The notes under the pieces: generated by a model
Told to the model about the DNA's origin: nothing
The model's database searches: none
What the model saw: the letters and a program-made list of their open reading frames with translations, nothing else
Source of the DNA: Candidatus Nitrosocosmicus franklandus
Lineage (GTDB): Archaea > Thermoproteota > Nitrososphaeria > Nitrososphaerales > Nitrososphaeraceae
Reading direction: 5' to 3'
Length of the DNA stretch: 64,000 nucleotides
Assembly (NCBI RefSeq): GCF_900696045.1
Contig: NZ_LR216287.1
Span: forward strand, 186,001 to 250,000
In this document: piece after piece, positions 1,055-15,287 of the stretch
Numbering within the stretch: position 1 is the stretch's first letter
Layout of the letters: every line of letters begins with the position of its first letter
Translations under genes and position numbers: made by a program

Positions 1055-2767
1055 TCAATAATTTTTTACATATAAAAGAGGCTCTTTAAATTGATCTTTA
1101 TCTCCACCAAAGTATCCAAACCCATTCCCGTCACAATCTGTACCGACCTTTGAAGCATTATTGAGAAGCGCGCTCTTTACAACTGAAGGCGACGCATCGG
1201 GATTGGTGGCAAGATATAGTGCAGCAGCTCCTGTTACATGAGGAGATGCCATACTTGTACCACTCATCGTTGCATAAGCACTATCCTTGAAAGTTGAAAA
1301 TATTTTTGTTCCAGGGGCTGCAATATCTATAACTGAACCATAATTGCTAAAAGTTGCTAACGAATCATCTCCACCATATCCTGTGTTTGGGCCCTGTGCG
1401 CCACACTTTCCATCACTATCTGCTATTGCTGAAACGGAAATGACATTAGGGTTATTGGATGGAGAGGTGTTTATCGCGTCCTTTCCAGCATTACCGGCAG
1501 CAACCACAAATACAATTCCTGCTTTTACAGCCTTGTTAATTGCAGTATCAAACGCAGTGGATTTGCATTCACATCCAAGACTCAAATTTGCTACTTCAAT
1601 CTGACTAGCATGACTGGTAACATAGTCAATGCCTTTTATGACCGTTGATAAAGGACCGGTTCCCTTGCTGTCTAGTACTTTGATAGCCCACAATTTGGCA
1701 CCCGGGGCGACTCCAACTGAACCAATGGCGTTGTCTTTGGCAGCAGCAATTCCAGCTACATGTGTTCCGTGACCATGATCATCATTGGCGGTGGTGATAG
1801 TAGTAGTATCCCCTCCAAATAATCCTGGAAGACCAGTATTGGTATTAACAAAGGATTTTTGATGATACACATTGAGGTCAGGGTGCTTTAGATCAATTCC
1901 AGAGTCTATGATTGCAATATCTACGTCCACATTTTCGTTTCCGTTACCTGATTTCGTTGAGCTCAAATCAGCATCAATTCTGTTTATACCTGTAGGTGTA
2001 GTTTGTGCAAATGCTTCGGTTAGTACATCGCTTTCTACATAATCTACCATTGGAAAGTTTTTGATAGCTTCTATCATCTGACTGTTAGGAACTTTTATTG
2101 CAATGCCGTTTAGTGCCTGTTCATATACCTGTAACAATTCTATTCCTTGAAATTCTACTTTTTCAGAAATAGTCGAAAAGAAGTCTGCTAAACTTGAATC
2201 ATCATCTTTGAAAACTACGATGTACTGATTGGGTATTTCGTTACCTACTTCCATGCCAGAGTCCAAGATAATAGTAGAAGGAAAGTCAGAATAATCAGAA
2301 ATCAAGGGTAATGCATGAGTAGTAAAGGATGAAATTTGATTAAAGTCAAGGTCAGATTGTGGTGATCCTACATTTCCTTCCTTTTTTTCTTCAATATTAT
2401 CGTAAATTGCACTGTTTAATGTATTTAGCGGAAAAGGAAGCAAGTTTGAGGAATTAATTTCTTTTTCTTTTTTAACTGCGAGAACAGAATTATCTGTGTC
2501 AGCATATTGAGCTACGCCCGTCTGTCCATTTTCGTTAGCTTCAACGGAAATTAAATTTGAATTTGCATTCTCCTTATTATCTGATGAGAAAGTATCTTCA
2601 TCACTCGAGCTGCCTCCAATATTAAAATTAAAATTTAGAAAAGGTATTTCAGGAATCACAAAATCAAAAGCATAAGAGTTTCTTACGACGCCTATATTCT
2701 GCAAACTAAAGACAATCAATAAGAATAGCATGCAAATTATGGCATGCCGTCTGATCTTGCTATTCAC
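1055..2767 (-). CDS. Secreted subtilisin-like serine protease (S8 family) with I9-type propeptide
   Basis: Predicted exported endopeptidase of 570 residues. A signal peptide or N-terminal anchor covers about residues 8-34 (hydrophobic stretch MLFLLIVFSL). A low-complexity acidic/Asn-rich linker follows to about 175, then an inhibitor I9-like propeptide at about 180-252 (starting QYIVVFKDDD). The catalytic domain spans about 258-570, with the Asp motif DIAIIDSGID (Asp288), the His motif HGHGTHVAG (His333), the oxyanion Asn in AAGN (Asn426) and the Ser motif GTSMASPH (Ser505). All triad residues are present, so it should be active after propeptide removal. Four Cys in the catalytic domain (399, 401, 455, 545) could form disulfides outside the cell. 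It stands alone, with no obvious operon partner. Likely a role in nutrient scavenging or surface protein processing, by inference. Confidence 0.92.
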   Translation of the reverse strand: MNSKIRRHAIICMLFLLIVFSLQNIGVVRNSYAFDFVIPEIPFLNFNFNIGGSSSDEDTFSSDNKENANSNLISVEANENGQTGVAQYADTDNSVLAVKKEKEINSSNLLPFPLNTLNSAIYDNIEEKKEGNVGSPQSDLDFNQISSFTTHALPLISDYSDFPSTIILDSGMEVGNEIPNQYIVVFKDDDSSLADFFSTISEKVEFQGIELLQVYEQALNGIAIKVPNSQMIEAIKNFPMVDYVESDVLTEAFAQTTPTGINRIDADLSSTKSGNGNENVDVDIAIIDSGIDLKHPDLNVYHQKSFVNTNTGLPGLFGGDTTTITTANDDHGHGTHVAGIAAAKDNAIGSVGVAPGAKLWAIKVLDSKGTGPLSTVIKGIDYVTSHASQIEVANLSLGCECKSTAFDTAINKAVKAGIVFVVAAGNAGKDAINTSPSNNPNVISVSAIADSDGKCGAQGPNTGYGGDDSLATFSNYGSVIDIAAPGTKIFSTFKDSAYATMSGTSMASPHVTGAAALYLATNPDASPSVVKSALLNNASKVGTDCDGNGFGYFGGDKDQFKEPLLYVKNY

Positions 2768-3075: not shown

Positions 3076-3366
3076 TTATTGTTGGCCTAATGCGTTGTTA
3101 CCGTCATTTAGGTTAATTGAGAATGCCAAGTTGTTGCATGAAGCAATTGTATCGTTACCAGAACCACATTCAGATAATTGTAGTGTTTCTGTATCTTGTG
3201 CTAATCCTTGAGCTGCTTCATTTGATTTTTTCTTTTTCTTTTTGTCATGGTCGTCGCCACCAGCAAATGCTTTGTTATCGATGGTGCTGCTTATTGCAAC
3301 AACAGAACCTACTAAGACTGCTGCTACAAAGATTGACATGATTGATAAACTAATTTTTTTATCCAT
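3076..3366 (-). CDS. Small exported Lys-rich protein, copy 1
   Basis: A 96-residue protein with an N-terminal hydrophobic segment (about 7-26) and a likely cleavage after AFA at about residue 35, giving a mature chain of about 60 residues. The mature part opens with GGDDHDKKKKKK, followed by a variable core and a conserved tail with two cysteines (SECGSGNDTIASCNN) and FSINLNDGNNALGQQ. A paralogue lies at 12159-12449: the first 54 residues and the last 22 are identical, while about 20 residues in the middle differ. The upstream 81 bp is also shared, with a TATA box 19-26 bp before the ATG, so the transcript should be leaderless. Function unknown; the two Cys could form a small loop. I cannot tell whether it is released or held at the membrane. 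Confidence 0.8.
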   Translation of the reverse strand: MDKKISLSIMSIFVAAVLVGSVVAISSTIDNKAFAGGDDHDKKKKKKSNEAAQGLAQDTETLQLSECGSGNDTIASCNNLAFSINLNDGNNALGQQ

Positions 3367-3447
3367 GTCAAAGTTTTCATTTTATTATATAATTGGATTG
3401 TTTAATTCGATTCTGAAATAATCTTACTAAACTAGATTCTTAAATAA
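3367..3447 (-). promoter_or_regulatory. Promoter of small exported protein copy 1, duplicated
   Basis: These 81 bp are identical by eye to 12450-12530 upstream of the paralogue. On the minus strand the box TTATATAA (3385-3392) sits 19-26 bp before the ATG, the expected archaeal TATA position for a leaderless mRNA. Identity stops abruptly at 3447/3448. Confidence 0.75.
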
Positions 3448-4521: not shown

Positions 4522-7506
<2,985 letters not shown>

Positions 7507-7888: not shown

Positions 7889-8596
7889 TTATTGGTGTTT
7901 TTCAGTTGAGATATCATACTCTATAATTCTTCTCGAAGGTCTCGAATTTTCTTTGTTAATTCTAGTCTTTAGAAATGTGAAATCGTTGTTGATTGTCATT
8001 TTCATTACCTCAAAAGCTTCAGTGCAAATAATTTTCGGGTCCAGCCTCGTTTGAAAGGCTCTGTACTCTGCCAAACCTCTCACTGAATTAGAACTGAGGA
8101 ATAATTTTGATTTCTGTGAACCATATAGTTCAATTACCTTTATTTTTTCATCTACCACATTCGAAATATCATTAAAAAGCACAGGTAAAAAATTTCTCGT
8201 AGACGGGTTTTCATATGCAATGATGGTAGGAGTAAACCTACCTGCCTCCATGGTCGCTTGAGCAACCGCACGATGGTCATGGTGATTATCCTTAAGTGGA
8301 TGAGTAAAAACCACATCGGCCTGTGTCTTTCGGATAAAAAACTCAATGGAATTTATCAACTCTTTGGTTAAGTAAACGGCTGAATCCTCGTAGTCATCGA
8401 TCCATAATTTTTTTGCCCCTATATACTTTGCAGAATTAATTATTTCATTTGAACGCTTTACTACTGATCCGGCACTTGAACCTCGCGTAACGACATACAT
8501 ATAGACGTTAACCCCACTTCTTGATGCATTGAGAAGTGTTCCGCCGCATCCAAGTTCAATGTCGTCAGGATGTGCACCTATAGCCAAAATATTCAT
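7889..8596 (-). CDS. PIG-L/LmbE family deacetylase
   Basis: 235-residue predicted zinc-dependent N-deacetylase acting on N-acetyl sugars or glycolipid/thiol precursors. The N terminus MNILAIGAHPDDIELGCGG holds the family metal-binding/catalytic AHPDD motif (His9, Asp11, Asp12), and HHDHRAVAQA at about 105-115 supplies the further metal His. Length is normal for the family. The substrate cannot be told from sequence. It could take part in surface glycan or small-thiol synthesis; no sugar-related partner lies next to it. Confidence 0.88.
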   Translation of the reverse strand: MNILAIGAHPDDIELGCGGTLLNASRSGVNVYMYVVTRGSSAGSVVKRSNEIINSAKYIGAKKLWIDDYEDSAVYLTKELINSIEFFIRKTQADVVFTHPLKDNHHDHRAVAQATMEAGRFTPTIIAYENPSTRNFLPVLFNDISNVVDEKIKVIELYGSQKSKLFLSSNSVRGLAEYRAFQTRLDPKIICTEAFEVMKMTINNDFTFLKTRINKENSRPSRRIIEYDISTEKHQ

Positions 8597-12158: not shown

Positions 12159-12449
12159 TTATTGTTGGCCTAATGCGTTGTTACCGTCGTTTAAGTTGAT
12201 TGAGAATGCCAAGTTGTTGCATGAAGCAATTGTATCATCATTAGAACCACATGCTGAATCTTGACCAGTTAATGTTGATTGTGCGATTCCTTGAGCTGCT
12301 TCATTTGATTTTTTCTTTTTCTTTTTGTCATGGTCGTCGCCACCAGCAAATGCTTTGTTATCGATAGTGCTGCTTATTGCAACAACAGAACCTACTAAGA
12401 CTGCTGCTACAAAGATTGACATGATTGATAAACTAATTTTTTTATCCAT
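12159..12449 (-). CDS. Small exported Lys-rich protein, copy 2
   Basis: 96 residues, paralogue of the protein at 3076-3366. The signal region, AFA cleavage site, GGDDHDKKKKKK opening and tail (DTIASCNN, FSINLNDGNNALGQQ) are identical. The centre differs: AQSTLTGQDSACGSND here against AQDTETLQLSECGSGN there. In DNA the signal region differs at only one or two bases and the upstream 81 bp is unchanged, so the duplication is recent or the ends are being homogenised. The clustering of changes in the core is unexpected for neutral drift. Function unknown. Confidence 0.8.
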   Translation of the reverse strand: MDKKISLSIMSIFVAAVLVGSVVAISSTIDNKAFAGGDDHDKKKKKKSNEAAQGIAQSTLTGQDSACGSNDDTIASCNNLAFSINLNDGNNALGQQ

Positions 12450-12530
12450 GTCAAAGTTTTCATTTTATTATATAATTGGATTGTTTAATTCGATTCTGAA
12501 ATAATCTTACTAAACTAGATTCTTAAATAA
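12450..12530 (-). promoter_or_regulatory. Promoter of small exported protein copy 2, duplicated
   Basis: Identical by eye to 3367-3447. The TATA box TTATATAA lies at 12468-12475 on the minus strand, 19-26 bp before the ATG. Confidence 0.75.
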
Positions 12531-12666: not shown

Positions 12667-12733
12667 AAAGAAGAAGAAGAAGAAGAAGAAGAAAAGGAGG
12701 GCGTTGGGGGGATGGGGATGGTGGATGGGAGAG
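12667..12733. repeat. Low-complexity purine tract (GAA repeat then G-rich)
   Basis: Repeated GAA triplets pass into a G-rich run with GGGGGGATGGGGATGG. On the minus strand this is a C/T tract just past the stop of the gene at 12745-13617. Similar pyrimidine-rich tracts recur elsewhere in the window. Confidence 0.8.
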
Positions 12734-12744
12734 CATGGTTAATG

Positions 12745-13617
12745 CTAAAATACATTTGTAGCATTTAGTGTACCGGTCCCATTAGGATAAACCGTTGCTG
12801 CAGTTTTTACTTCTGAAAAAATAACGCCTCCTATCTCTATATTTTCAAGAGTAGTTGGATCATTGACAAACGTTCTAGATCCATCGGCATTTTCAGTCAC
12901 ATTCGTAGGATTGGTAAAAACCCTTAGTTGTACAGGAAGGGCATTGGTCGAATTATCTAACTTTATACTTGCGCGCATAGATATGAGTATATCACTAATA
13001 GTAATCTCATCAGCTGGGTCATACAAGTATTCATAGTTTAATGGAATATCGTTAATTGTGATAAAGGGTTTTCCACTAATAGCATAATCAGTCTCAAGAC
13101 CAAGGGGTTTAGATGTAAAATTAGTAAAGACAGTAACATTTTCGTTTCCGGCCAATTGCGTCTCATTTGTTGTCAAGATCGCGGTATCATTTGTATTTGT
13201 CAGATTTTCAGTGATATTCATCTGATCAGCGAGTGGCGGAGTTGAACCCAGTAGTTCCACTATCGACGGAGGAAGTTCGAGATTTACATTGCTACCACCA
13301 GGAGTTAGTGATATAGTGGCATTTCCAGTGGAATTAGACATTATATCCAAATTTATGACGCTAGAATTAGAATTATTGGCAGTTGTAGTATTAGCTAGCC
13401 CATCGCTATTACTATTATTACTGTTATTTGCACCAGCACCGGTTGTCATATTGTCCAAGTCAATGGAATTTTGAAGTGAAAGTGCATCAAGGCCCGTAGA
13501 ATTGGTTGAAGAAAATGAATAATTCGGAGATGGAAATGACAAAAACAGTAGCAATACAACAGGGAAACAGAATATCAAAAACCTATGAAAGTTATATTGG
13601 ATATTTGGAACCTTCAT
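12745..13617 (-). CDS. Exported Asn/Ser/Thr-rich protein of unknown function
   Basis: 290 residues. A hydrophobic N-terminal segment (about 12-32, FLIFCFPVVLLLFLSF) is a signal peptide or anchor. Residues about 35-165 are rich in Asn, Thr and Ser with many N-x-S/T sequons (such as NNSNNSN, NSTGNATISL), suggesting heavy glycosylation or a disordered stalk. The C-terminal about 120 residues look folded (FITINDIPLNYEYLYDP, ITISDILISMRASIKL) and end GTGTLNATNVF. No catalytic motif is visible. Family not recognised; a surface location is inferred. Confidence 0.75.
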   Translation of the reverse strand: MKVPNIQYNFHRFLIFCFPVVLLLFLSFPSPNYSFSSTNSTGLDALSLQNSIDLDNMTTGAGANNSNNSNSDGLANTTTANNSNSSVINLDIMSNSTGNATISLTPGGSNVNLELPPSIVELLGSTPPLADQMNITENLTNTNDTAILTTNETQLAGNENVTVFTNFTSKPLGLETDYAISGKPFITINDIPLNYEYLYDPADEITISDILISMRASIKLDNSTNALPVQLRVFTNPTNVTENADGSRTFVNDPTTLENIEIGGVIFSEVKTAATVYPNGTGTLNATNVF

Positions 13618-14537: not shown

Positions 14538-15287
14538 ATGCGGGAATTACACTATGGAAGAAACGTCATCAATATGGCGCTGATAATAATTGATATGCAA
14601 AATGGGTTTGTCAGCAAGGGTGGGTCTTATGATAAGCTGGGAATGAATATCGAAAATTATCAACAAATCATACCCAATATAAAAAAACTAATTAATTTTT
14701 GTAGAGAAGAAAAAATTCCAATTTTTTACACAGAGGCTATTAGAGAGCCCAGTGGCATAGATCTCTTACTTAACATTCATAATATTCTTCCAAGGGCCCG
14801 TGAAGAGAGATTGCAGAACAAAAAAATTCCAATTTGCATGAGAGGCACCTGGGATGCCGATATCATTGATGAAATAAAACCCGCCGAGGAAGACCATATT
14901 ATCCTCAAGCGGCGTGACTCTGCTTTCCAAGATACAGAACTCAGAGTATGGCTTCAGAGCTTGAATGTAAACACTCTGATATTCTGCGGTATAGACACTT
15001 CAATCTGTGTAGAGACATCATTACGTGATGCGTTTAACCTAGGTTATGATGTGATACTTGTATCTGATGCAACGGCTTCTGGAAATAAGAAGCATTATGA
15101 AACTACCATCGAAAGAGTGAGGGATTATTACGGAGTTGTCATAAGCATAGATGATTTAAGAAAGATGGTACGAACGCTAGAGGACCTGGGTGAAGACGAA
15201 CTTCAGTCTACAGATGAAGAAAATGAAAGGATTAGTCAATTTCTAGAAAAACACAACCTGATAAACGTTCGAAGAGAAAAAAAGTAA
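14538..15287 (+). CDS. Cysteine hydrolase, isochorismatase/nicotinamidase family
   Basis: 249 residues. The family triad is visible: Asp19 (IIIDMQNGF), Lys124 (IILKRRDSAF) and Cys157 (CGIDTSICVE), with the usual cis-peptide region just before the Cys. These enzymes hydrolyse amides or vinyl ethers such as nicotinamide or N-carbamoyl compounds; the substrate here cannot be fixed. Residues about 205-249 form an acidic/helical tail absent from minimal members. Met13 would also make a normal start, but the TATA element favours 14538. The gene stands alone. Confidence 0.85.
   Translation: MRELHYGRNVINMALIIIDMQNGFVSKGGSYDKLGMNIENYQQIIPNIKKLINFCREEKIPIFYTEAIREPSGIDLLLNIHNILPRAREERLQNKKIPICMRGTWDADIIDEIKPAEEDHIILKRRDSAFQDTELRVWLQSLNVNTLIFCGIDTSICVETSLRDAFNLGYDVILVSDATASGNKKHYETTIERVRDYYGVVISIDDLRKMVRTLEDLGEDELQSTDEENERISQFLEKHNLINVRREKK

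Follow-up and report, generated by a model that had tools for sequence, protein, structure and literature searches.

Two genes for short peptides, A and B, pose a puzzle: their ends and upstream regions are alike, and their centres are different. Both are found in the window, a stretch of 64,000 nucleotides from the genome of Candidatus Nitrosocosmicus franklandus, an ammonia-oxidising archaeon of soil. Is this the result of a recent duplication with rapid change in the core of the peptides? Or, are these old paralogues whose ends have been made alike by copying? Another question is what covers and glues the cells of Nitrosocosmicus, which, unlike other ammonia oxidisers, are S-layer-less, and which aggregate strongly. 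Nitrosocosmicus has no S-layer genes and is reported to be without slp1 (PMC6776761, PMC11559005). By cryo-tomography the cells are thick-walled and carry hair-like filaments of about 30 nm, tentatively read as glycocalyx (PMC11559005). N. franklandianus aggregates ahead of biofilm formation, and no adhesins are known (PMC12448741). Here we investigate A and B in the genome of the window (G000) and in compared genomes, which are given other G numbers.

Peptides A and B

The gene for peptide A is an open reading frame of 96 aa on the minus strand (3076..3366, ATG at 3366), with orthologues in six congeners. It is comprised of a signal (3262-3366), a charged, His/Asp/Lys-rich linker, GGDDHDKKKKKK (3226-3261), the type-A core of codons 55–71 (3154-3204), and a conserved tail (3079-3153), all on the same strand. 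Peptide B, also of 96 aa, is encoded on the minus strand at 12159..12449 (ATG at 12449) and has its type-B core at 12237-12287. The N-terminus of both, read directly from the sequences, is a hydrophobic stretch followed by AFA-GG or similar, from which we infer that A and B are secreted, with a signal ending AFA/GG.

The initial annotation had described an identical signal region, opening, tail, and 81-bp upstream region in the two copies. At the protein level this is so, and the upstream identity covers exactly 81 nt before each ATG (3367..3447 for A and 12450..12530 for B, both minus strand), with unrelated sequence farther out. Downstream, identity stops 1 nt past the stop codon. There are 24 differences over 372 nt, 20 of which are inside the 51 nt of codons 55–71; none of 20000 shuffles was as clustered. 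The signal and linker differ by one synonymous base change and the tail by three. Ten of codons 55–71 are changed, eight of them non-synonymously. The clustering that had been noticed is thus real, but the differing residues number eight rather than about 20, and they are not strictly before the CGS loop, since residues 70 and 71 are inside it, past the first Cys.

Seen in this genome alone, the pair looks as if a gene had recently been duplicated within the species and the core had then changed rapidly under positive selection, as in an arms race involving signals, toxins, or adhesins. The eight non-synonymous changes among ten changed codons are in keeping with this. Comparison with other species makes such a history barely credible, as set out below.

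A family of 47-residue units

A six-frame protein search of the genome returned 72 unit matches at E<=10, 45 of them at E<=0.001, which we grouped into about 30 genes. The suspicion that the genome carries more cores was therefore correct, and it includes a second set of six genes. Family members combine a hydrophobic N-terminus with one to about nine tandem copies of a Q/N-rich unit, usually with two cysteines, that is 47 residues long in 75 of the 80 units extracted. The unit consensus is NxAxQxIGQxQxSxQxSxCVSGxxTxxSCNNxxxQxQxNxGNNALAQ. A and B have one unit each, and the codons that differ between them mostly fall late in the first half of that unit.

Among 400 genomes of the class, the unit profile has matches in all 15 Nitrosocosmicus genomes and in one of the 385 others. 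Named relatives from the protein search are almost all Candidatus Nitrosocosmicus. The sole genome outside the genus (G327:C89, L156) has nine matches, belongs to the same taxonomic family, and has 4% contamination; either contamination or transfer may account for it. Pfam, NCBIfam, and PDB profile searches with the family found no relative, the weak archaellin and rodlin matches being below the cut-off. In our literature search the family was nowhere described, and the main texts held no expression data for its genes. AlphaFold2 models of A (18 aligned sequences, pLDDT 47) and of a two-unit relative (pLDDT 43) were uninformative.

Some members have features of their own. Three 149-aa two-unit copies at distant sites (L021-L023; G000:C1:1097849, 1117779, and 2469611) are 99.4–99.6% identical over about 530 nt, with identity ending near the gene. 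Another member (L009, G000:C1:1035530-1035961) has two stop codons and is apparently a pseudogene.

Core type is fixed to the locus

Both peptides, with the same two cores, are present in seven species. The A core contains QDTETLQ (QSTETAQ in G009) and the B core a QDS motif (TGQDS), with a final E except in the genome of the window. The two loci were told apart by their flanking genes, independently of the core sequence. Locus A is marked by a conserved exported subtilase (Peptidase_S8 with an I9 propeptide; 1055..2767, minus strand) and by a divergent neighbour, an exported 994-aa surface protein with Big_9/cadherin/HYR repeats (4522..7506, plus strand), both assigned by Pfam and synteny. 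Locus B is marked by a conserved exported 290-aa protein without a Pfam match (12745..13617, minus strand) and a conserved 249-aa gene (14538..15287, plus strand), which appears isochorismatase-like by our reading of its sequence. The subtilase and/or the 994-aa protein flank A, and the 290-aa and 249-aa genes flank B, in G000, G003, G006, G009, G011, and G013. In all six of these genomes with synteny the core type is fixed to the locus.

This bears on the idea of cassette switching, in which a core would pass from one locus to another, or from a silent copy into expressed ends, as happens in antigenic variation. Conserved ends around a differing centre, and many paralogues with different cores, are what such a system would look like. 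However, the locus-fixed cores give no sign of shuffling, A and B each have their own intact promoter, and no core-only copies were noticed among the matches in the genome. We consider cassette switching quite improbable.

Two repeats were seen beside these loci. The 994-aa protein contains five 279-bp repeats (window 5802-7217), the first four 100% identical and the fifth 92%, followed by a long PEPEPE stretch. An AAG triplet run (window 12670-12697) is intergenic beside locus B.

Old cores between homogenised ends

The fronts and the cores of A and B have different histories. In the tree of the fronts, A and B are intermixed and grouped by species, and the AU test rejects an A clade, with a very small p-value that is to be read as strong rejection only. 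In the tree of the cores, built on a short segment of 42 nt, A is parted from B with support of 96/96. The distances agree with the trees. For signal and linker, A and B differ within species by a mean of 0.058 nt/site, against about 0.25 between species; the NG86 dS of the same region is 0–0.25 between A and B in six of seven species (1.56 in G011, which is unhomogenised), and about 0.4 to saturation between species. The narrow core has the reverse pattern, 0.46 within species versus 0.23 (A-A) and 0.27 (B-B) between species. Since the same cores are at the same syntenic loci, and the core tree splits A from B before it splits the species, the A/B duplication, on these comparisons, predates the species examined.

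In nearly all species pairs, A-A as well as B-B, core dN is below dS, the latter being a rough estimate from 19 codons. Because of this the cores are, judged by these rates, under purifying and not diversifying selection between species. The initial annotation had proposed a diversifying core, and a comparison of dN/dS in core and ends as a check. Diversification was not borne out: the cores are the same in seven species, at fixed syntenic positions in six, and under purifying selection, while the ends have low dS within species (six of seven) and high dS between them. These are also the observations that count against recent duplication with positively selected change, given that in six species the A and B cores recur at matching syntenic loci, and in a seventh by sequence, and that they separated before the species did.

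Could the ends be alike through functional constraint, without any copying between paralogues? Across the family there is conservation of signal peptides and of the CNN...GNNA..Q tail, as constraint would predict. The coding fronts of A and B are more alike within species than those of orthologues in G000, G003, G006, G008, G009, and G013, but not in G011. Within G000, G008, and G013, synonymous sites and the promoter spacer (the latter in these three genomes only) likewise match fully or almost fully between A and B, and these differ between species. As silent and non-coding sites are alike within species too, constraint on the protein is insufficient, and we find this explanation very improbable. 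Copying between old paralogues, presumably by gene conversion, is the reading that we prefer.

In G000 the copying must, on this evidence, be recent, because A and B have identical silent sites and promoter spacer whilst the 249-aa neighbour of B, which serves as the baseline for species divergence, is saturated at synonymous sites between G000 and every congener tested. In the closely related trio of G009, G011, and G013, copying appears to have run in opposite directions in sister lineages, since G011 has two differing fronts, of which that of A groups with both G009 genes and that of B with both G013 genes. In G009 and G013 the bases flanking the core are identical or nearly so between A and B, yet 16 and 23 of 57 core sites, respectively, are different. 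This suggests that core conversion is selected against.

Promoter elements

Within the 81-bp upstream regions is a 21-bp element, TAGTAAGATTATTTCAGAATC, located at 3409-3429 before A and at 12492-12512 before B. A TATA-like stretch, TTATATAATA (3383-3392, minus strand), is only 17–26 nt upstream of the ATG of A, so that transcripts of A and B are likely to have a short leader or none. Allowing up to three mismatches, the 21-bp element is present in three places in the genome. Apart from those of A and B, the one further site precedes another single-unit gene, which lies at C1:180100, shortly beyond the window. Across the genus there are 24 matches in nine genomes, of which 23 are 42 nt (43 nt once) before a gene of the subfamily; for L117 the spacing was taken from the gene start in the protein-search result, since the automatic ATG search stopped early.

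A second subfamily, the MSNITK genes, has a different promoter sequence, positioned 21 nt from the ATG at all 30 loci inspected and present in 14 of 15 genomes. Each subfamily has a promoter sequence of its own, with a fixed spacing from the ATG of 42 or 21 nt.

The MSNITK genes

The genome of the window contains six single-unit MSNITK genes of about 267 nt each (G000:C1:936005, 1175868, 1176406, 862392, 856023, and 758877; loci L221-L225). Their fronts, including the first half of the unit, are nearly identical, and the second half differs. Recurring types of back can be recognised across nine species. The tree of the backs requires six type changes, the minimum, and 26 species changes, which is to say that there is no clustering by species; the tree of the fronts requires 15 type changes and 17 species changes. 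Because the types were named from the backs, the type count in the back tree is expected, and the informative part is that clustering by species is absent in the backs and present in the fronts. By these counts, homogenisation of the MSNITK fronts is only partial, in an anatomy similar to that of A and B with the other half of the unit variable.

Comparison with known systems

Partial concerted evolution of paralogues is already known, as in mtrA-1 and mtrA-2 of methanogens (PMC4632066) and in other long-lasting prokaryotic cases (PMC6053082). Like A and B, the mtrA genes are old paralogues of which one part is homogenised by gene conversion and another kept different. In contrast to mtrA, A and B are small exported peptides in which homogenisation has affected the signal, linker, and tail, and in part the promoter, a short distinct core being flanked by homogenised sequence on either side; the second subfamily is similar with the other half of the unit. 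This makes A and B a clear case of copying that homogenises the ends of paralogues with short cores held distinct across species, and such a pattern indicates that function is decided by the core.

Curli CsgA/CsgB (Curlin_rpt, PF07012) share with this family exported Q/N/G/S-rich repeats of fixed length, and by analogy subunit and cap would be fitting roles for paralogues with one unit and with several. The unit described here differs in its 47 residues, usually two cysteines, and motif spacing, and the Curlin_rpt profile has no match in the whole genome or in the units, although the E. coli control matches. The chaplins, which carry a cysteine pair, and the rodlins of Streptomyces are likewise families of small secreted surface proteins with short and long forms. 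The chaplin profile has no match, and the rodlin model matches only B, at 16.6 bits against a cut-off of 75. By profile the family belongs with neither curli nor chaplins nor rodlins, but it may work similarly. Slp1 of ammonia oxidisers is, like this family, a candidate protein part of an outer coat; no similarity between the two was found here.

Possible role at the cell surface

The explanation that we consider best, and on the whole probable, is the following. An old duplication within Nitrosocosmicus would have given A and B, each a secreted peptide with a charged linker and one 47-residue, Q/N-rich, two-cysteine unit. Gene conversion within each species would then overwrite the signal, linker, and tail, at times together with the promoter, making the ends alike, and selection would keep the two first-half-unit cores different. 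Presumably co-regulated, and with cores that are distinct yet conserved, A and B would most simply be two non-interchangeable subunits. These may assemble outside the cell with the multi-unit members, to form fibres or coat material on cells that have no S-layer.

We infer a coat or fibre role because Nitrosocosmicus has no S-layer genes and its surface hairs are unexplained; it also fits a family that is nearly genus-restricted, expanded, secreted, and Q/N-rich. With about 30 genes, some with dedicated promoters, this secreted repeat family is an obvious coat candidate. The glycocalyx reading of the hairs counts against it, since no protein fibre is then needed. That the fold is a beta-fibre is guessed from composition, the AlphaFold2 models being uninformative.

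The same history is compatible with diffusible secreted factors, such as metal-binding, signal, or inhibitory peptides, in place of structural subunits. Small size, the His/Asp/Lys-rich linker, two cysteines, a dedicated promoter, and the subtilase adjoining A in related genomes would all suit such factors. Against this, the unit is repeated up to about nine times in larger exported proteins, a better fit to structural material, and no genes for maturation, immunity, or export partners were seen beside A or B. We regard diffusible factors as rather unlikely, and structural subunits of a coat or fibre as the preferred reading. A more far-reaching version of the latter, possible but distinctly tentative, is that the unit family is the missing protein of the S-layer-less coat, with multi-unit fibres and single-unit, complementary and co-regulated subunits whose cores set the binding partners. 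If true, the genus would have a substitute for the S-layer that is specific to it, and into which a set of conserved specificities is built.

Between loci A and B the window also contains a PIG-L type de-N-acetylase (7889-8596), which is of interest given the amino-sugar coat that has been proposed.
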